NCBI RefSeq assembly: GCF_025770765.1
Contig: NZ_JANZKY010000002.1
Span: 62,001 to 126,000 of the forward strand
Origin: Propionivibrio soli
GTDB taxonomy: Bacteria > Pseudomonadota > Gammaproteobacteria > Burkholderiales > Rhodocyclaceae
Direction of reading: 5' to 3'
DNA: 64,000 nt
The notes under the pieces were generated by a model, which was not told the origin of the DNA, did no database searches, and worked only from the letters and a program-made list of their open reading frames with translations. Below are positions 6,818 to 57,602 of this stretch, in pieces; the first letter of the stretch is position 1; every line of letters starts with the position of its first letter. Made by a program: the position numbers and the translations under genes.

Positions 6818-7816
6818 ATGGCCACCGATTTTCTTTCCCAGGACGAAGTCGACGCACTGCTCAAGGGCGTCACTGGGGAATCCGACGAACCGGAAGCTGC
6901 GGAGGACGCCGAAGGCAGTATCCGCAGCTATAACCTGGGAACCCAGGAACGGATCGTCCGTGGCCGCATGCCGACGCTCGAACTCATCAACGAGCGGTTC
7001 GCGCGCTACCTGCGTATCGGTTTGTTCAACTACATGCACCGTACGACCGAGATTTCGGTCGGTCCGATCCGGGTGCAGAAATACAGCGAATTCATCCGCA
7101 ACCTCGTCGTCCCGACCAACCTCAACCTCGTTTCGGCCAAACCGTTGCGCGGAACGTCGCTCTTCGTATTCGATCCCAACCTGGTGTTCCTCGTCGTCGA
7201 CAACATGTTCGGTGGCGACGGACGCTTCCACACGCGGGTCGAGGGTCGGGACTTCACGGGTACCGAACAGCGAATCATTCGCGGCCTGCTCAACGTCGTT
7301 TTCACCGAGTACGCGCGTTCGTGGAAGCCGGTCTATGCGATTTCGTTCGAGTACATCCGATCGGAGATGAACTCGCAGTTCGCCAACATCGCTACCCCGT
7401 CGGAGATCGTCATTTCCACAACGTTCTCGCTCGAGTTCGGCGGCACGGCGGCGGACATGCATATCTGCTTCCCGTATTCGATGGTCGAACCGATCCGGGA
7501 TCTGCTCTACAGCTCGATGCAAAGCGATCAGCTGTCGACGGACCAGCGCTGGATATTGATGTTGCGCAAACAGCTCAAGGATGCCGAAATCGAAATTGCC
7601 GCCGACCTCGGTACGGCCACGGTCTCGTTGCGGCAGATTCTCGAGATGCGCACCGGAGACATCATCCCGATCAATATTCCGGACAAGATCATTGCCTGTG
7701 TCGACGGTATTCCATTATGCGAATGCGCTTATGGGCAGCAGAACGGCCAATACGCATTGAAGATCGAGAAATTCGTTACTCAGGACCCCGCTGACGGTGT
7801 CCTGCCAAGGAGTTAA
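6818..7816 (+). CDS. fliM: Flagellar motor switch protein FliM
   Basis: FliM is the C-ring protein that receives CheY-P and relays it to FliG. It is 332 residues from the ATG at 6818. The N-terminal CheY-binding peptide is present (FLSQDEVDALLKG, about residues 5-17). The middle CheC-like domain contains NMFGGDGRFHTRVEGRDFT, and the C-terminal SpoA domain (VSLRQILEMRTGDIIPI) pairs with FliN. An in-frame start at 6764 was rejected because it lies inside fliL. Confidence 0.97.
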   Translation: MATDFLSQDEVDALLKGVTGESDEPEAAEDAEGSIRSYNLGTQERIVRGRMPTLELINERFARYLRIGLFNYMHRTTEISVGPIRVQKYSEFIRNLVVPTNLNLVSAKPLRGTSLFVFDPNLVFLVVDNMFGGDGRFHTRVEGRDFTGTEQRIIRGLLNVVFTEYARSWKPVYAISFEYIRSEMNSQFANIATPSEIVISTTFSLEFGGTAADMHICFPYSMVEPIRDLLYSSMQSDQLSTDQRWILMLRKQLKDAEIEIAADLGTATVSLRQILEMRTGDIIPINIPDKIIACVDGIPLCECAYGQQNGQYALKIEKFVTQDPADGVLPRS

Positions 7817-7821
7817 AACAC

Positions 7822-8244
7822 ATGGCCACCGAAGCCGATAACCACCCGCCGCCAGACTCCGAGCAAGGGATCGAGGATGATTGGGCCGCCGCGATGGCGG
7901 AGCAAACGCTGGCCGACGCCTCCGCGCAGCCGGCCCAGATATTCCCGTCGTTCGGCGAAGCCGACGGCAAAGCATCGATGATGAACGAACTCGACATGAT
8001 CCTGGACATCCCGGTCCAGATTGCCGTCGAGTTGGGCCGAACGAAGATCACGATCAAGAATCTTCTCCAGTTGGCCCACGGGTCGGTCGTTGAACTCGAC
8101 GCCATGGCCGGCGAGCCGATGAGCGTCTATGTCAACGGAACGCTCATCGCCCAAGGCGAGGTGGTCGTCGTCAACGACAAGTTCGGTATCCGGCTCACGG
8201 ATATCATCACGCCTTCCGAACGTATGCGGAAAATAGGACGCTGA
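7822..8244 (+). CDS. fliN: Flagellar motor switch protein FliN
   Basis: FliN forms the base of the C ring and the docking site for FliH/FliI. It is 140 residues: an acidic, variable N-terminus (about 1-55), then a complete SpoA domain (LDIPVQIAVELGRTKITI; GSVVELDAMAGEPMSVYVNG; VVVVNDKFGIRLTDI). A strong AAGGAG ribosome site precedes the ATG at 7822. A 120-base gap without a clear promoter separates it from fliO. Confidence 0.97.
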   Translation: MATEADNHPPPDSEQGIEDDWAAAMAEQTLADASAQPAQIFPSFGEADGKASMMNELDMILDIPVQIAVELGRTKITIKNLLQLAHGSVVELDAMAGEPMSVYVNGTLIAQGEVVVVNDKFGIRLTDIITPSERMRKIGR

Positions 8245-8364
8245 CGCTCGACCTCCATACGGCCGTGCGTCGGCGGCACGCTCTCCATTCTTCGCAGATT
8301 TCCTCCGGTCGCCTGCATCGATTAAGATAGCGGGCATTCCGCATTCGCGCATCGGGGCGTTTAA

Positions 8365-8811
8365 TTGACCAAGCCATTCCACCGCTTTGCCGCCGCGACG
8401 TTCGCCGCGGGGAGCCTGGCTCTCGCCCCGTGGCAAGTTTTCGCTCAATCCGCTGCCGTTCCCGAAACCCCGGGGGTTCCTGGTAGCGCCATGGTGCAGA
8501 TGCTTCTCGCCCTCGCCTTGATCATCGGCTTGCTGTTCCTCGGGGCCTTCTTCCTGCGCCGCATGAACGGCGGACAAAGCTTCGGCAATGCGGGACCGTT
8601 GCGCGTTGTCGGAAGGCTCATGCTTAGTCCGCGAGAGCGCATCGTTTTGCTTGAGGTCGAAGAAACCTGGGTCGTCGTCGGGATTGTTCCCGGCCAAATC
8701 AAGACACTGCTTACTCTGCCGAAGGGCGAGCTGCCGGCCGCGGGAACGGCTGACAATCGCTTTGGCCACTGGCTCAAGCAGATGACCGAACGTCATCATG
8801 GCCAAGCGTAA
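8365..8811 (+). CDS. fliO: Flagellar biosynthesis protein FliO
   Basis: FliO is a small membrane chaperone for FliP assembly in the export gate. It is 148 residues using a TTG start at 8365 (GGGGCG ribosome site 7 bases upstream). This start gives a signal-like N-terminus ending in QVFAQ, followed by the membrane helix [19 protein letters not shown]. The cytoplasmic domain carries [20 protein letters not shown], typical of FliO. No in-frame ATG could replace the TTG without losing the signal region. The end overlaps fliP by 14 bases. Confidence 0.88.
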
Positions 8812-43124: not shown

Positions 43125-45188
43125 ATGGCCCAGCAACCGAAACCCTCGCCTTCCGTAGCCTCGATTCCGCTGCGCGGGCCATTGCTGCGCGGTCGTCGAC
43201 GCCCACGAGTGGCGCTTGTGGGCCGTTTCGGCGTCGGCAAGAGCACAATCTTCGACGATGCATCGAGCCCGGCGGTCCGCCACGAACGGCTCGCCGGGGT
43301 GGGTGCCGCCTACCAGGAATGCATCGTCGATGTCGGCCTCGACCAGATCGGGCTCGTCGATCTGCCGTCGATCGACTCGCTTCATTGTCTGAGTAAACAT
43401 GATCAGGTCGTCCTTATGTACCTGCTGTGGGGCGACCGCTGGCCGCGCATCGCGGAACACGAGACGCCGGAACAGGCGCCTGATTTCCCCGCCCCCGACG
43501 TTCTGGTACAGGTGGTCGACGCAACCGCTCTGGAAAAGGACCTCGAACTCAGCCTCGAACTCAGCCTGCTCGGCCGCCCACTCGTCATCGCGCTCAACCG
43601 GGTGGACGAGGCGCGCAAGAAAGGGCTCTACATCAACGTCAACGCGCTCAGCGAACGCCTCGGTGCGCCCGTTGTACCCACCGTCGCACACATGGGCAAG
43701 GGCATTTCGAAGCTTTTCGAAGCTGTGCTCGACGTCGCGCGGAGGAAAGCCTGCCCCCTACCGCAGGCGCCAGCCAGGCACATTGTGGAAAGCCTGCATG
43801 AACTGACCGCCGTTATCGCCCGACCGGAAATCGAGGACGTATTCCAGGTTCCCCGGGCCCTTCTCGTGTCGCAACTCGCCGAGAACGACGCCTACTTTTT
43901 ACGGGCACTCAACACACATTTCCCGGGATGCGCGCCCGGTATCGCGGCTGCCCGAGTCGCGGCGGAACGACGCCTGCCACGACCGCTTGCCGAAGAACTG
44001 CATGCCGACCGTCACCATCGAGCCGCGTCGCTGTTCGAGGACGTTACAAGCCCGCGTGGCGTCGACTCCGGCCAAGGGTGGCGGCGTTGGCTCGATCAGT
44101 TGTTCCTGCATCCGCGTTGGGGACTGTTCGGGACGTTCGTCGTCTTCGCGGCGATCCTGTTCATCGTGTTCGAGATGAGCGCCCTGCTCGACACGTGGAC
44201 GTCGGCGCGGCTCGCCGCCTGGGTGCAGCAATGGGAACCGACCTCGACCGCCGGCGTGGTGGGTCGTGCGGTGGCCGACGGCCTTGTCGGACTGGTCGGT
44301 ATCGTCGCCCCCTACATGCTGCCGCTCGTGCTGCTGCTCGTGACGTTGGAGGAATCGGGCGTGATGCACCGCGTGGCGTTCGTCGTCGACCGGGCGTTCT
44401 ATCGCGTGGGACTCCATGGCGGCGTCGCCGTGCCTCTCCTGATCGGCCTTGGCTGCAACGTGCCGGCAATCTCGGCGGCCACCGCAACCGGGTCGCGGCG
44501 AGAGCGCGTAGTGGCGGCGATCCTGATTACCTTCGTTCCCTGCTCGGCGCGCTCGGCGATCATTCTCGCCATCGGCGGCAAGTACTTGGGCGGTCTCGGC
44601 GTGGTGGCGATCTTCATGCTCACGCTGCTCACCATCGCCATGCTCGGCAAGGTCCTCTCGCATCGCTACGCGCCCACGGCGCCGGGGCTCGTGCAGGAAA
44701 TACCGCCCTACGCCGTTCCGAAGTGGAGCAAAGTGTGGCGCAAGACCTGGGCCCGCACCGAAGATATCGTGACGATCGTCACGCCGCTGCTCGTCGTCGG
44801 CAGCATCGTGCTCGCCCTGCTCAGTCATTTCGGGGCTGACGCCTTCATCAATACCGCGCTCACCCCGGTGACGACGTGGTGGCTGGGCCTGCCGGCCGTC
44901 CTCGGCGTCCCGATCCTATTCGGCGTATTGCGCAAGGAACTCTCGCTGCTCATGATCTACCAGGCGCTCGGCACGTTCGACATCATGCCGGTGCTCGACC
45001 GCACCCAGATATTCACCTTTCTGGTTTTCCTCACGTTCTACGTACCCTGCTTGTCGACGTTCGCCGTCATGCATAAGGCGTTGGGGCAAAAGGAGGCCTG
45101 GTTCTCGGCGCTGGTGTCCCTCGGCAGCGCGCTGCTCATGGCCGGCGTGGTCCGCCTCGCGCTGGCGCCTTTCGGGGTTGTCGCCTGA
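43125..45188 (+). CDS. feoB: FeoB-like ferrous iron transporter with degenerate GTPase domain
   Basis: FeoB imports Fe(II) through a membrane pore attached to a G domain. It is 687 residues. The membrane part is clear: gate motifs GLGCNVPAISAATATGSRRE and FVPCSARSAIILAIGGKYLG, and FLTFYVPCLSTFAVM near the end, with ~8-10 helices from about residue 325. The G domain (about 28-210) is eroded: G1 is GRFGVGKST, the G2 Thr region reads AGVGAAYQE, G3 is DLPS instead of DLPG, and G4 is NRVD. No feoA was found. The next gene starts 2 bases after the stop. Confidence 0.85.
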   Translation: MAQQPKPSPSVASIPLRGPLLRGRRRPRVALVGRFGVGKSTIFDDASSPAVRHERLAGVGAAYQECIVDVGLDQIGLVDLPSIDSLHCLSKHDQVVLMYLLWGDRWPRIAEHETPEQAPDFPAPDVLVQVVDATALEKDLELSLELSLLGRPLVIALNRVDEARKKGLYINVNALSERLGAPVVPTVAHMGKGISKLFEAVLDVARRKACPLPQAPARHIVESLHELTAVIARPEIEDVFQVPRALLVSQLAENDAYFLRALNTHFPGCAPGIAAARVAAERRLPRPLAEELHADRHHRAASLFEDVTSPRGVDSGQGWRRWLDQLFLHPRWGLFGTFVVFAAILFIVFEMSALLDTWTSARLAAWVQQWEPTSTAGVVGRAVADGLVGLVGIVAPYMLPLVLLLVTLEESGVMHRVAFVVDRAFYRVGLHGGVAVPLLIGLGCNVPAISAATATGSRRERVVAAILITFVPCSARSAIILAIGGKYLGGLGVVAIFMLTLLTIAMLGKVLSHRYAPTAPGLVQEIPPYAVPKWSKVWRKTWARTEDIVTIVTPLLVVGSIVLALLSHFGADAFINTALTPVTTWWLGLPAVLGVPILFGVLRKELSLLMIYQALGTFDIMPVLDRTQIFTFLVFLTFYVPCLSTFAVMHKALGQKEAWFSALVSLGSALLMAGVVRLALAPFGVVA

Positions 45189-45190
45189 TC

Positions 45191-45751
45191 ATGAATCACC
45201 TGATTCGCGACAGCGCACCGTTGGAACTCTACGTCTGGCTCGGTGCGGAGGCCGCACTGCCGGGCTGGGACGTGCTGACTGGAAACCCGTTCGGCACGCC
45301 GCTACCCGATGACCAGTTCACGACAGCGCAGAACTATTTCGCCGAGTACCATCTGGAATATTACCGGCAGCGCCTGTATACGAACTTTCCAAGCCGGCTG
45401 CACGCGCTTCTCCTTTTCGCGACCCGCGTAGACGCCGAGGCTTTCCGCGCCAAACATCCGGAGCGGGCGCAAGGTAAATCCTTGATCCACGTGCGTAGCG
45501 AAGGTTCATACGTGGTGTCGTTCCACGATTCGAGTTGGCTCGACTACCTGCGCCTGCCGCACAGTCTCGACCTGGAAATGCTGGACAGGGTCTCGAACTA
45601 CTACTGGAAGGGCGCGTTGGTCGAGGAAGTTCGACTCAGCTTTCGCGACGAGCGCTGGAACGCGCCGCCGGTGATCGAGGCGCTCTTCCAGGGGACCCTG
45701 AAACGGGTCGAGTCGCCGCCGACAATCCGCCGGTTAACGCGACCCGCCTGA
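45191..45751 (+). CDS. Unknown 186-residue protein coupled to the FeoB-like gene
   Basis: Family not recognised with confidence. It has 186 residues, no signal peptide, no membrane helix and no cysteine, so a soluble cytoplasmic protein is predicted. It is rich in Tyr, Phe, Trp, His and Arg, with segments YNYF-like AQNYFAEYHLEYYRQR, FPSRLHALLLFATRVDAEAF and SWLDYLRLPHSLDLEML. The middle is vaguely reminiscent of the ADP-ribosyltransferase-like DUF2441 proteins, but I cannot confirm this. Two bases separate it from the FeoB-like stop, so coupled translation and a shared role are likely. Confidence 0.82.
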   Translation: MNHLIRDSAPLELYVWLGAEAALPGWDVLTGNPFGTPLPDDQFTTAQNYFAEYHLEYYRQRLYTNFPSRLHALLLFATRVDAEAFRAKHPERAQGKSLIHVRSEGSYVVSFHDSSWLDYLRLPHSLDLEMLDRVSNYYWKGALVEEVRLSFRDERWNAPPVIEALFQGTLKRVESPPTIRRLTRPA

Positions 45752-45782
45752 TGGCTGTTTGCCGGCGGTCTGGCGCCAGCCC

Positions 45783-46496
45783 TTAGTCGAGTTTTTTCAT
45801 CTTCGGCTCGCGGCCAAGCCCGCTGGGCGGTGTCCCCGTTTTGCCGTTGTTCTGCGGCGGCGTCACATGGCCCGGCGGCGGCAACGGCCTTCTTGGCGTG
45901 TGGTTGAGCACCGTCGCATAACGCAAGTAGAACAGCACCGGCTCGGTGTTCATCACGACCTGCCCGCTATTGTCCACGATGCTCGCATCGACCTGCGTCA
46001 ATTGATTGGGCGGCGGCAGCGTATCGCCCCAAAACTCTGGCGGAACCATGATTTCCGTCGACGTAAACCGGCGTGCGACCGGCCGACCGTTAATGCGCAG
46101 CACGAAGGCGTGGCCATCACCGACCCGCAACGGCGGATCGACAGCGAGGCGAACGTCGAAAACCGCCGTATTGGCGACGATGCTGCCGTTGTTTTCGGGA
46201 TAGACCACCGAGAATTGACGGTACCCTGGGGGAGGTGCGTCGGGTGGCGGCACGATAGCGCCAACCGGCGGCGTAGCCGGTGCTGGGGCCGCTTCCGCGG
46301 CCGGTGCTGACGGAGCCACCTTGGGGGCCGGCATCACGGTCAGCGGCGGCAACGTCACTTCTTTGGCCCCGGGCCGCGGCTTGTCGGAAAAGACCGGGCC
46401 CTTCTCGCCCGGCGTCATATAGACCCCCTGCGCCTGGACGGTACCGGCGTGGAACGCGCAGGCGCCGAGCAGAATCGCCAAGGACAAGGATTTCAT
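45783..46496 (-). CDS. Periplasmic protein with DUF4124-like N-terminus
   Basis: It is 237 residues from the ATG at 46496, which begins a Sec signal peptide (SLSLAILLGACAFHAGTVQA). The mature start (GVYMTPGEKGPVFSDKPRPG, then AKEVTLPPL) resembles the DUF4124 pattern (short strand, 'FSD-P-GA'). A Pro/Ala linker follows (about 65-105), then an Ig-like beta domain (FSVVYPENNGSIVANTAVFD; GHAFVLRINGRPVARRF) that ends before a Pro-rich tail. Function is unknown. A longer start at 46535 lacks a signal peptide and was rejected. Confidence 0.8.
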   Translation of the reverse strand: MKSLSLAILLGACAFHAGTVQAQGVYMTPGEKGPVFSDKPRPGAKEVTLPPLTVMPAPKVAPSAPAAEAAPAPATPPVGAIVPPPDAPPPGYRQFSVVYPENNGSIVANTAVFDVRLAVDPPLRVGDGHAFVLRINGRPVARRFTSTEIMVPPEFWGDTLPPPNQLTQVDASIVDNSGQVVMNTEPVLFYLRYATVLNHTPRRPLPPPGHVTPPQNNGKTGTPPSGLGREPKMKKLD

Positions 46497-46663
46497 GGTT
46501 TCCTCCAACACTCTCGCAGAAGCCCCGTCTTTCACATCGGCGGGAAAACAATGTCATGAGAACGACGAAATGCCGGGAGTATCGGCCAGAGGAACGTCGC
46601 TGACAAGAGGCCGGGAAAAAGACGCAGGGCCGCGATTGCCAGGCGCGGACCGAGGCGCCCAGG

Positions 46664-52423: not shown

Positions 52424-53578
52424 TCAGGAATACGCGTCAGCGGTCCGGACGGCACCCGCCTCGCCAACGCCGTTATCCCGGTAGTGTTCGGCAATTGCGT
52501 GAAACTGATCGGCGATCGAAATCATTGCGTCGAGCATCTCGGGGTCGAAGTGCCGACCGCGTTCTGCTGTCATCATTTCCATCGCCTGGTCATGCGAATA
52601 GGGTTCCTTATAGGCGCGTCGCGAAATAAGCGCGTCGTAGACGTCCGACAGGGCCATCAGGCGGGCGCACACCGGGATGTCGTCGCCCGCGATCCCGCAG
52701 GGATAGCCGGTGCCGTCCCAGCGCTCATGGTGTCCGTAGGCGATGACTTGGGCGAAACCGAGGAAGGACTCCTTGTCGCCGAGATCTCGCGAGGCCGCCG
52801 CGATCGCATTACGCCCGGCGACGCAATGCGTCTTCATGATCTCCCACTCGCTCGCATTGAGCTTGCCGGGCTTGAGCAGGATCGAATCGGGAATCGCTAC
52901 TTTGCCTACGTCATGCAAAGGTGCCGATTTGAAGATGAGGGGAATCGTCTCATCGTTCAACTCCGTCGCGAAGCGGGGATGCGAACGTAGTTCCTCGGCC
53001 AGCGCACGAACGTAATGCTGGGTGCGTTTGATGTGGTTACCCGTGTCGGTATCGCGCGCTTCGGCCAAGGTACAGAACGCCGTGATCGTCGCAGTTTGCG
53101 CAGCGATGATCTGCTGATCACGTTGCACGATCTCGCGTGTGCGTTCGGCGACGAGCTTCTCGAGTTCGTCGTTATGCAATTGGAGCTCCCGCTTGGTGCG
53201 CGCCAGCTGCAAGTGGTTGCGCACCCGCGCCAGGACGACGGCAGGGGTCACCGGCTTGTGTACGAAGTCGCCCGCGCCGAGCGAGAGGCCAAATTCCTCG
53301 TCGACGGCGCTTTCAAGGCTGGACAGGAAGATCACCGGAATATCGCATGTGGCAGGGTTGGCCTTGAGGCTCCGGCAGACTTCGAAGCCGTCGATACCGG
53401 GCATGACCACATCGAGCAGGATGAGATCGGGCAGCAGGCGCATGGCAAGATCGAGCCCTTCGGCACCATTCGATGCAAAACTGACGGCGTACTCTTGACC
53501 AAGGATAGCGCCGAGCAATTCGATGCTCCCCAGGGAATCGTCGATAATGAGCAGGCGTGGACGTACGGCGTCTTTCAT
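52424..53578 (-). CDS. Response regulator with HD-GYP phosphodiesterase output
   Basis: This is a predicted phosphorylation-controlled cyclic-di-GMP phosphodiesterase. It is 384 residues. The receiver domain covers about 8-122 ([14 protein letters not shown]; phospho-Asp56 in [21 protein letters not shown]). A helical linker (about 125-165) is followed by the HD-GYP domain: [22 protein letters not shown] at 222-223 ([13 protein letters not shown]) and GYP at 291-293 ([13 protein letters not shown]). All catalytic motifs are intact. Its ATG overlaps the kinase stop, so the kinase is its probable partner. Confidence 0.94.
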
Positions 53579-56500
53579 GATCCTCTCCGCTGTTCGCTAT
53601 CTTGCAGGTGCTCAAGCAAAGCGAGCGCAGCATCGTAGTTGAGTTCCTGGACGGCCCCCGCGATATCGTCGATTCGAGCCGACAGCGGGCCGCCACGGGC
53701 GCGCGAAATCAGTTCGCCAGTCAAACGGCGGGCGTCGAAGCTCTTGGCGCGCAGTTCATGGGCCAGCCGCTCAAGCTCGGGGGCCAACGTCGGGAAACCG
53801 GCCGCTTCGCCTTCGAGAGTCGGCTGAACCGTTTCGCCCGCCGGCTTGAGACGAGAAAGCACGGCCAGGATGGCGTCGCATTCCTTGGCCAGCGTTTCCG
53901 TGGCTTCGACCAGCGTCTCGTCCGCACCCGACTCGATGATGCGACAGACGGTATTGGCCGCGGCAGCGACGGCCGAAAACCCGAGGTTGCCGGCCTCGCC
54001 TTTGAGGTTGTGCGCCTCGCGGAAAAGCACCCGTGTACGGCCTTCGGTAAGCAGAGTGCGCACGCGGGACGCGGCATCGCGCTGGCGTTCGGCGTACGAG
54101 GCGAGCAACTTGCGATAAAGTGCCACGTTTCCGGCCATGCGCGCGAGCGCGGCGCTCACCGCCACACCGGTCAGAGCCGCTTGCAGAACCTGGACGGCCG
54201 ATTTCGGAGAGGACTCGGTGTCAGCCGCCTCGGCCGGTGGCGGCTCGACCGGCACGGCCGGTGCTACCGCACCGTCCCGCGGCTTGACCCACCGCGCAAG
54301 CGTCGTTGCGAGCTCTTGCGGATCGACGGGTTTGGCGACATGAGCATTCATCCCGGCGGCGGCACTGGCGTCTCTGTCCTGAGCCATCGCGGCCGCCGTC
54401 ATGGCGATGATCGGCAAGCCTGCACCGCGCGGCAGGGCACGAATCCGCCGCGTCGCTTCCAAGCCGTCCATGACCGGCATGTGCACATCCATCAACACCG
54501 CGTCGAAGTGCTCACGTTCGACCCATTCGACCGCTTCGAGACCGTTGGCAGCAACGGTTACGTCGAGCCCACCCTTGGCCAGGAACTCGCGCGCCACCTG
54601 CTGATTGATCTCGTTGTCCTCCACTAGCAGCACCCGGGCGCCACGGATACCGTCGAGCGTGGTGCGCGTTGCGGCGAATTGATCGGGCCCCGCTTCAGCA
54701 CGATCATGCGGCCGGTTCTGCAGGCGGATCAGCGTATCGAAGAGCAGCGACTGGGTGACCGGCTTGCCGAGTATGGCGTCGACCGCCGCAATGCCCTTCG
54801 TTTTGCGCAGTTCATCGCGGCTATACGCGGTCGCCATGACGATCATCGGCGGGTGGTCGATCTCGGGATTATCCTCGGCGATCTTGCGCACGCGGTTCGC
54901 GAGCTCCACGCCATTCATCTCCGGCATTTTCCAATCGAGCAGCAGCAAGTTAAACGGTTCGCCGTCTGCCGCAGCACGCACCAGGAGGTCGAGCGCTTTC
55001 TCGCCGGAGTCGGTCGTGGCCACGTCGAATCCCCAGCTTTCGAGGATGCGCCGCATGATCAGGAGCGACGTTTCCTGATCGTCCACAACGAGAGAGCGCA
55101 TCGGTTTCAAGTCGTGCAGACGAAGGCCTGTCTGGCGCGATTCATGGGGAACGGTGGAAACCCCGACTCGGGCGGTGAAGGTAAAGGTACTGCCACGACC
55201 GGGCTCGCTGCTTAGCCCTATTTCGCCGTGCATCAACTCAACGAGGCGCTTGCTGATGGTGAGGCCGAGCCCGGTCCCACCGAAACGCCGCGTCACCGTT
55301 GCGTCGGCTTGCACGAAGGGGCGGAACAAGCGTGCGGCCTCGTCTGGCCCGATGCCGATCCCAGTGTCGCGCACCGAAACGCGCAGAATCACCGCATCGG
55401 CAGTTTTCTCCTCAATGCCGGCACGCACGTGGATCTCGCCTCGGTCGGTGAACTTGAGTGCATTGCCGACGAGGTTGTTGATCACCTGGCTCAGGCGCAA
55501 CGGATCGCCGATCAGATAGTCCGGCACGTCGGGAGCGACGTCGATGAAAAGCTCGATGCCCTTTTCTTCGGCCCGCACCGAAAAAAGGTCGCCGGTGGCG
55601 AGCAGTATCTGCTCGAGCGAGAACTCGACCGATTCGATGTCCACGCGGCCGGCCTCGATCTTCGAGTAATCGAGAATATCGTTGAGAATCCCGAGCAGTG
55701 CCCGCGACGAACTGAGGATCTTCGCCAGATAGTCGCGCTGCTGCTCATCGAGGGACGTATCGAGAGCGAGTTGGGAGAGCCCGATGATGGCGTTCATCGG
55801 CGTACGGATTTCGTGGCTCATGTTGGCCAGGAACCCGGACTTCGCCATGTTCGCTGCATCGGCCGTTGCACGGGCCTCTTGCAATTCCGCCGTGCGTTCT
55901 TCAACCAGATGCTCAAGGCCATCCTTGTAATGCTCAAGTTCCTTCTCGGCACGCTGCCGTTCGGCGATCTCGGCGCGCATGGATTCCAGTGCACGGTTGC
56001 GCTCGCTGTCGTTGCGCATCACCGCCCGCGTTGCCCGCACGCCGACGGCGACGACGCCGGTAGCTGCCACAAGCGCGGCGGCGAGGAGGCCCCATCGGCT
56101 GAGATGGAACTGACGGTCGAGTTCCTCAACCGCGGCCTCCGTCTTGCGGTTGTTGATATCGGTGAGCTTGCGCATCGCGAGGGCCAACATCTTGTCGTTC
56201 TCGCCCTGAACTGCAAACCGCAAGTTGGCCGCGTCCGACTGCGAGGCACGCAGAGCGACGACCCGCGCCATGTCTTCACGATAGAGCCGGGCATACCCTG
56301 CGCAACTGTCGAGGAGCCTCTTTTCTTCCTCGCTCAACGGCCCAACGTCGGCATAGGAACGCAATGTGTCGTCGAGCGCCTGCATCTCGCCGGCAAAGCG
56401 GTCGGCGTCGCTGCCGCCTTCGTTCAGATAATTGGAAAAATAAAGCGCGGCATTCCCGAGATGCAGCGACCCGCGCAGCATGAGCTGGTGCCGATGCGTC

Positions 56501-56628
56501 ACGACCGTCGACAGGTGACTCCACTGCGCCGTGAGTTCGGAAAGCATGACAAACGCCAGCAGGACGACACCGAGAACGGCAACCAACGCCGCCCCGAACC
56601 CGACCGCAAGCGCCGGCTTGACCTTCAT
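53575..56628 (-). CDS. Hybrid sensor histidine kinase with two receivers and Hpt
   Basis: It is 1017 residues. Two membrane helices ([20 protein letters not shown], and about 180-197) bound a ~145-residue periplasmic helical sensor region. A coiled coil leads to the HisKA domain ([20 protein letters not shown], His272), the HATPase ([55 protein letters not shown]), receiver 1 ([13 protein letters not shown]), receiver 2 ([26 protein letters not shown]) and a C-terminal Hpt domain ([12 protein letters not shown]). This is a full BarA-like phosphorelay chain. Its start overlaps the DctP-type gene and its end overlaps the HD-GYP gene, both as ATGA. Confidence 0.95.
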
Positions 56629-57602
56629 TGGTCCGCCCGCGCCGCTTGTACGACCATTCGAACGTAGTCGCCGATCGGGCTGGCGTACCATTTGTCGTAG
56701 ATCTTGCTCGTAGCGGCGGCAAAAGGCCGCGTATCCACCTTGTCGATGCGCAATCCGCGCGCCGCGAGATCCTTGTGGGCGTTGGCTTCGGCCTGCCGCA
56801 TGACCTGACGCTGGTACCGCGTCGCATCCTCCGCCGCGGCACGAAAGATCGCCTGGTCCGCGGCCGTTAACGCATCCCAGGCTCGTTTACTCATCAGAAG
56901 CGGCGTGATTTCGTACTTGTGCCCGGTGAGCGAAACGTATTTCTGGACCTCGTACAGCTTGGCGCTGAGAATATTGGTCAGCGGATTCTCCTGGCCGTCG
57001 ACAACGCCCCGGAGCAGCGCGTTATACACGTCGGAGAACTTCATCTCCACGGGCTTGCCGCCGAGCGCGACGACCACGTCCTGCGTAACCGGGTCGGCGG
57101 GCGTACGGATGCGTAATCCCCTCACATCGCCCGGCTCGCGGATCGGGCGAGTCGCGTTGGAAAGGTGGCGAATGCCGTTATCCCAGAACCCGAGGACGAT
57201 GAGTCCCTTGGCCGCTGCCTTTTGCGCCAGCACTTGACCGGCCGGACCGTCGAGGATGCGCCATGCCGCTTCCGGCGACGCAAACAGAAAAGGCATACCG
57301 ATGGCGCTGAATTCAGGTACGACAGCAGAAACGGTTCCCTGGCTGTTGGCGGTCAGATCAAGGCTGCCGTCGGCGAGTGCCTTCATCATCGCCGCATCGT
57401 CACCGACGCTGGCGGCTCCCGCGACATCGATGACGATGCGCCCCCGGGTCCGTTCCTTGATCGTCTCCGCAAAGCGTTGCGCGGCTCGGGCACGCGGGTG
57501 CTCGGGCGGCTGAGCGTGTCCGAACGTCAGCACCATGGCGGCATAGCCAGGGGCCGAGAAAGTCAGGAAAAAGAACAGGATCGACCCGAGCAACGTGCGC
57601 AT
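56625..57602 (-). CDS. DctP-type periplasmic binding protein (orphan, no permease)
   Basis: Proteins of this family bind organic acids, normally for TRAP transporters. It is 325 residues from the ATG at 57602, which begins a signal peptide ([19 protein letters not shown]). Family marks include [20 protein letters not shown], the ligand-clamp region [20 protein letters not shown] and [20 protein letters not shown] followed by ENPLTNI. No DctQ or DctM membrane subunit is present. The gene instead overlaps a hybrid sensor kinase, so a role as a ligand-sensing partner of that kinase is likely (inference). In-frame codons upstream of 57602 lack a signal peptide. Confidence 0.92.

Follow-up and report, generated by a model that had tools for sequence, protein, structure and literature searches.

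The stretch of DNA analysed here (the window) comprises 64,000 nucleotides of Propionivibrio soli (contig NZ_JANZKY010000002.1, positions 62,001 to 126,000), and on its minus strand, at 52424-57602, it carries a three-gene unit in which the gene for a solute-binding protein precedes those for a hybrid kinase and a response regulator. Open reading frames and Pfam matches give the order DctP, hybrid kinase, REC-HD-GYP. The first gene (56625..57602; 325 aa) encodes an orphan DctP-family binding protein of the tripartite ATP-independent periplasmic (TRAP) transporter type (PF03480, E=2.7e-80), the second (53575..56628; 1017 aa) a hybrid sensor histidine kinase, and the third (52424..53578; 384 aa) a predicted cyclic di-GMP (c-di-GMP) phosphodiesterase. 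As a preliminary description of the locus had reported, the genes are joined by two ATGA overlaps, which can be read in the sequence at 56625..56628 (DctP stop, kinase start) and 53575..53578 (kinase stop, HD-GYP start). The span given there, 53575-57602, covers DctP and the kinase but omits the HD-GYP gene. A promoter and terminator scan returned no promoters (shuffle mean 1.3) and four terminators (shuffle mean 5.2), neither above the shuffled sequences.

The kinase has a transmembrane segment, a helical sensor, a second transmembrane segment and then HisKA, HATPase_c, two receivers and Hpt. Its hydrophobic stretches lie at the start and at residues 179-197, and about 150 residues are therefore expected outside; the periplasmic helical-bundle sensor would occupy about residues 30-178 (56095..56541). 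HisKA (262-327) and HATPase_c (374-487) were placed by Pfam at 55168..55845, the receivers at 54298..55101 as two Response_reg stretches (about 507-633 and 666-777, with PF24896 under its cut-off at 507-633), and Hpt (841-921; PF01627, 3.4e-7) at 53866..54108. The best NCBIfam model for the kinase is the TorS equivalog TIGR02956, yet the score of 493.1 bits falls below the cut-off of 676.5. The phosphorelay had also been called BarA-like, which is true of the domain layout but does not extend to the BarA equivalog NF008318/PRK11107 (467.3 bits against a cut-off of 890). The regulator consists of a receiver and an HD domain and has the receiver Asp, HD.GK and HHE..DG.GYP, motifs that were searched for as patterns.

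What kind of domain is the sensor? The extracytoplasmic region of the kinase has no Pfam match above cut-off. An AlphaFold2 model built from four sequences is helical (predicted local distance difference test score, pLDDT, 80; predicted template modelling score 0.57), and its top Foldseek matches are the kinase sensor 4k0d, Tsr/Tar and Vc1313, none at E <= 0.001. LytS of the XylFII-LytS system ranks 13th, with a template modelling score of 0.84 by target and 0.46 by query and a root-mean-square deviation of 2.0 over 120 columns. PF12729 (4HB_MCP_1) matches weakly (E <= 1) in six of the ten kinases introduced below, with a best E of 4.3e-4, and does not match the window protein. The sensor may be a divergent chemoreceptor-type helical bundle, with which the fold matches agree weakly.

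The binding protein scores 270.2 bits against PF03480 (cut-off 23.4) and 265 bits against TIGR00787 (cut-off 175.05), and a hydrophobic stretch at residues 8-26 reads as a signal peptide. All 12 aligned rows share its Arg166, which by its motif we take to correspond to Arg147 of SiaP. In SiaP, the arginine that we equate with Arg166 selects carboxylates (PMC4646407). Because the ligand arginine is invariant, a small carboxylate is a plausible ligand of DctP. A structure model of DctP reached a pLDDT of 58 and was not used; hence no ligand is proposed from the fold.

A scan of genome contigs from 84,980 species for two short patterns returned three loci, in two Zoogloea metagenome-assembled genomes and in Methyloversatilis thermotolerans; we judge it narrow, because a subsequent profile search found more. 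That search, made with the sensor across a sample of 395 genomes from the family (handle f1, which we take to be GTDB Rhodocyclaceae), found ten kinases carrying the sensor at scores of at least 235 bits, four of them in the window's genus, five in the genus that includes the Zoogloea genomes and one in Methyloversatilis. An intact DctP gene lies directly upstream of the kinase in eight of the ten loci; a congener (G495) has a remnant and another (G530) has none. The ATGA overlap between DctP and kinase is present in seven of these eight, the Methyloversatilis locus having a 46-base gap instead. This pairing is more than chance: in eight of ten loci the gene for the binding protein lies beside that for the sensor and is inherited along with it, as would be expected of a kinase of the XylFII-LytS or TorT-TorS kind.

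Neither DctQ nor DctM was found within the 18 kb that surround the unit (L035; one query each, which a very divergent DctQ could escape), and none of the 24 DctM matches in the genome falls on the contig that carries the unit (C12), in agreement with the preliminary description. The latter had also suggested looking for dctQM at this place in close relatives: neither subunit was found in any of the ten kinase loci, two of which (L134 and L138) extend only about 1.3-1.5 kb upstream of DctP. The DctP-kinase pair recurs in the window's genus, Zoogloea and Methyloversatilis. In contrast, DctM adjoins DctP in all eight of the transporter-type DctPs examined, which were chosen from among the nearest.

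The ancestry of the binding proteins also bears on the pairing. In a tree of 64 rows, for which 48 further loci were tried (L081 gave no row), all eight DctPs linked to a kinase group in a single clade (bootstrap 99; Shimodaira-Hasegawa approximate likelihood-ratio test 92) that appears in 98% of 200 bootstrap trees. A lone DctP from the window's own genome (C1:210347; support 99/84) is sister to this clade, and DctPs of ordinary transporters come next outward. These relationships support the view that DctP is tied to the kinase by descent. DctP is under purifying selection: the ratio of nonsynonymous to synonymous substitution rates (dN/dS) is 0.084 and 0.110 in two pairs from the Zoogloea genus, below the values for the sensor and for the remainder of the kinase. 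Ten positions that separate kinase-linked from transporter-linked DctPs could not be mapped onto a structure and were set aside. As a separate observation, the lone sister DctP (L036:6339-7313(-), contig C1) has neither a permease nor a kinase match in the 14 kb read around it.

The output side of the kinase is more variable. An HD-GYP gene directly follows the kinase in four of the ten loci, which are the four of the window's genus, and a different HD-GYP gene lies about 2.5 kb upstream in G718. The kinases of the Zoogloea genus are 644-653 aa long with one recognised receiver, and that of Methyloversatilis has an extra PAS domain, one receiver and a sigma-54 regulator upstream. Since HD-GYP adjacency is confined to one genus, we regard DctP plus sensor as the conserved unit and the three-gene form as one genus's version of it; the sensory unit of three genes in the preliminary description therefore stands for its first two members and is only genus-deep for the third. 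Between the window and its congener G663, identity is 72% in the kinase core, 52% in the sensor and 44% in DctP, and the corresponding values for G707 of the Zoogloea genus are 52%, 53% and 58%. Such figures would fit input and output modules that have separate histories or have been exchanged.

We consider it probable, with good though incomplete confidence, that the unit is a periplasmic co-receptor system, in which a TRAP binding protein acts as co-sensor for a kinase that feeds a c-di-GMP phosphodiesterase, in the manner of XylFII-LytS or TorT-TorS. A DctP that has lost its transporter would bind a small carboxylate and, in either the loaded or the empty state, present itself to the helical-bundle sensor by physical contact. 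The kinase would then relay phosphate along a His-Asp-His-Asp path, from HisKA through a receiver and Hpt to the receiver of REC-HD-GYP, which in the window's genus may in turn alter c-di-GMP breakdown; control of c-di-GMP breakdown by the three-gene unit is probable in that genus. The co-sensor reading gains support from the occurrence of the same sensor-DctP pairing with different outputs behind the sensor. A wider proposition, on which we are evenly divided, is that DctP and the helical sensor make up an exchangeable input cassette, recruited once within one family as a kinase's dedicated antenna and then joined to varied outputs (an HD-GYP relay, a short hybrid kinase, and a PAS kinase beside a sigma-54 regulator).

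Several observations weigh against the co-sensor reading. The sensor occurs in just four of the 20 listed genomes of the window's genus. The DctP remnant of G495 (L137:7158-7616(+)) has stops and a deletion, while its kinase and HD-GYP frames are open and its sensor appears constrained (dN/dS 0.046 against G663); in G530, kinase and HD-GYP are likewise open, and a CreA-family gene is found there rather than DctP. Between the window and G663, dN/dS is higher for DctP (0.22) than for the sensor (0.155), with dS near saturation. The structural matches of the sensor are weak, and helical bundles easily resemble one another. The sensor tree is unresolved, with the window's genus forming one group in 18% of bootstrap trees. 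Finally, the sensor domain of Pseudomonas aeruginosa AgtS was not bound by two binding proteins encoded nearby (PMC11113362), and therefore adjacency alone is no proof of contact.

The broad sensor type, moreover, is found in chemoreceptors that have no DctP. The 14 remaining matches of the family search score at most 92 bits, and in 13 of them the open frame itself, or the one that follows, encodes a chemoreceptor signalling domain (none was found for L124). A search of the order matched seven of 399 genomes, including the window's own; the other six loci are chemoreceptors by eye, and no kinase or DctP match was found in any of them. The class search gave, besides the window's own genome, four weak matches in 368 genomes, of which L140-L142 hold chemoreceptor domains and L143 is a distant kinase whose sensor is weakly similar (42 bits) and which has no DctP in the stretch read. 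Given these DctP-free chemoreceptors and L143, the sensor may bind a ligand directly. The sensor of G530, which lacks DctP, changes seven columns that all nine other sensors keep invariant; five of these fall within columns 147-167, a cluster that is at most a hint of a contact face. The number of changed columns is uninformative as a sign of a lost partner, because the DctP-bearing Methyloversatilis sensor (G540) changes 17 such columns, two of them inside 147-167.

One alternative is that the orphan DctP serves a DctQM encoded elsewhere in the genome, that the kinase senses directly through its helical bundle and that the operon merely co-expresses the two. Orphans are common: among the 31 DctP matches in the genome, 11 have no DctM match nearer than 5 kb, of which one lies at a contig end, another within a chemoreceptor and a third next to a MatC-type carrier. 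The genome also has 24 DctM matches. The use of the sensor type by chemoreceptors without DctP, and the persistence of the G530 and G495 kinases without an intact one, suit this explanation as well. Against it stand the retention of DctP beside one particular sensor across several genomic settings in which the rest changes, and the grouping of the linked DctPs in a single clade apart from the permease-linked DctPs; we consider this alternative unlikely.

A second alternative shares the input side of the co-sensor reading: DctP and the kinase cooperate, but the HD-GYP protein is a mere neighbour drawn from a common kinase/HD-GYP arrangement, and another regulator is the main target. The HD-GYP gene is not adjacent in six of the ten loci. 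Of 16 loci retrieved for the top-scoring HD-GYP matches, four have the HD-GYP gene next to a hybrid kinase that bears a different sensor; automatic tables showed no hybrid kinase directly beside it in the rest. Within the genus, however, the kinase-HD-GYP order is kept in all four loci, with kinase cores 70-76% identical to that of the window and HD-GYP proteins 59% (G495) and 71% (G530) identical. A different main target seems to us improbable, to much the same degree as a distant transporter. That operon shuffling brought the genes together by chance, with no functional link, is very improbable: one relative has no DctP and one has a remnant, but against this stand the eight-of-ten pairing over three genera, the overlapping frames and the purifying selection on DctP.

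Genes around the unit say something about the possible ligand. Upstream genes include a 3-hydroxyacyl-CoA dehydrogenase (G647), a CoA-transferase and short-chain fatty acid transporter (G495) and a thiolase (G663), to which the window adds a divergent carboxyltransferase, and they may give a weak hint of a short-chain hydroxy or keto acid. The nearest transporter-type DctP in G495 adjoins a transketolase, a dihydroxyacetone kinase and a short-chain dehydrogenase, and so points elsewhere than to hydroxy or keto acids. G495 holds a DctPQM set about 63 kb from its kinase locus, whose DctP is 54% identical to that of the window. The preliminary description had set the unit next to a large flagellar locus and drawn a link to motility. 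The link to motility is not supported: flagellar and motor genes, named by reading translations, extend to about 40.3 kb, 12 kb from the unit, and the other loci, whose gene tables were read without systematic annotation, showed no flagellar cluster. By eye, two similar genes, one for a large GTP-binding protein and one for a small secreted protein, lie close to the kinase and HD-GYP genes of the window and also to those of G530 (window 43125-46535 and L139:11514-14900).

Other combinations of DctP with signalling domains were seen along the way. A chemoreceptor on contig C31 of the window's own genome (L038:6793-8958(-)) has a methyl-accepting chemotaxis protein (MCP) signalling domain followed by a C-terminal DctP domain, and the same arrangement is found in six loci of five other genomes (L191, L192, L193, L194, L195 and L199, from G530, G511 twice, G409, G411 and G466; three genus handles). 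Hydrophobic stretches near the start number two in the L038 protein and in L191-L194 and one in L199, while L195 is cut at its start. The DctP domain is predicted to be cytoplasmic in these chemoreceptors, because it is C-terminal to the MCP signalling domain, and a literature search found no description of them. On contig C33, a DctP that has no hydrophobic stretch at its start (L040:6074-7180(+); start codon uncertain) overlaps a PAS-HisKA-HATPase kinase (7093-8451(+)) that lacks hydrophobic stretches, and the two are possibly a cytoplasmic DctP-kinase pair. The kinase, DctP and DctM matches on contigs C4 (23440-43468) and C13 (67188-87216) of this genome agree in score and spacing, and represent either a duplication of at least about 20 kb or a doubling in the assembly. 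Long open frames in other genomes that might have been DctP-kinase fusions (L096-L104, L074, L076 and L079) were rejected, as no kinase domain was found in any DctP-holding frame; they look like unbroken frames of GC-rich DNA.

Among orphan DctPs, this locus offers a concrete, testable case in which one kinase is the clear candidate for a partner. Relatives that have DctP (G663) or lack an intact one (G495, G530) provide natural variants, and the sensor is followed by at least three different output arrangements. If correct, the co-sensor reading would link an extracellular compound to c-di-GMP, and the cassette reading would make DctP a further binding-protein family in transmembrane signalling. 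The surprise would be limited, because activation of kinases by binding proteins is already known in principle. XylFII is a sugar-binding protein rather than a DctP, with a kinase of different architecture and output, and TorT also belongs to another binding-protein family.

Binding proteins contact kinases in XylFII-LytS, TorT-TorS and LuxP-LuxQ (PMC6321045). XylFII-LytS is akin to the window's unit in that a separate D-xylose binding protein contacts the extracytoplasmic domain of its kinase (PMC6321045) and in that our sensor model resembles LytS; in the window's unit, the contact is a predicted one. TorT-TorS likewise joins a hybrid kinase to a binding-protein partner (PMC6321045), but the window kinase stays below the TorS cut-off (493 bits against 676.5). 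The literature searched, seen in part, yielded no description of DctP as a kinase partner, and novelty is not thereby established. With DctPQM and SiaPQM, the window's DctP shares its family and an invariant arginine at the expected place (PMC4646407), and differs in that the Q and M subunits were not found at the window locus. In BctC-BctE of Bordetella, the binding protein of a tripartite secondary transporter of the TTT type signals to a kinase; BctC is of the TctC family and continues to work with its own permease, BctBA, a transporter that the system regulates (PMC5812351, PMC9602780). Chemoreceptors of the Tar/Tsr type, whose four-helix sensors are able to receive a binding protein (PMC6321045), may resemble the window kinase in the type of sensor, but the window protein couples its sensor to a kinase output rather than to a chemotaxis signalling domain.

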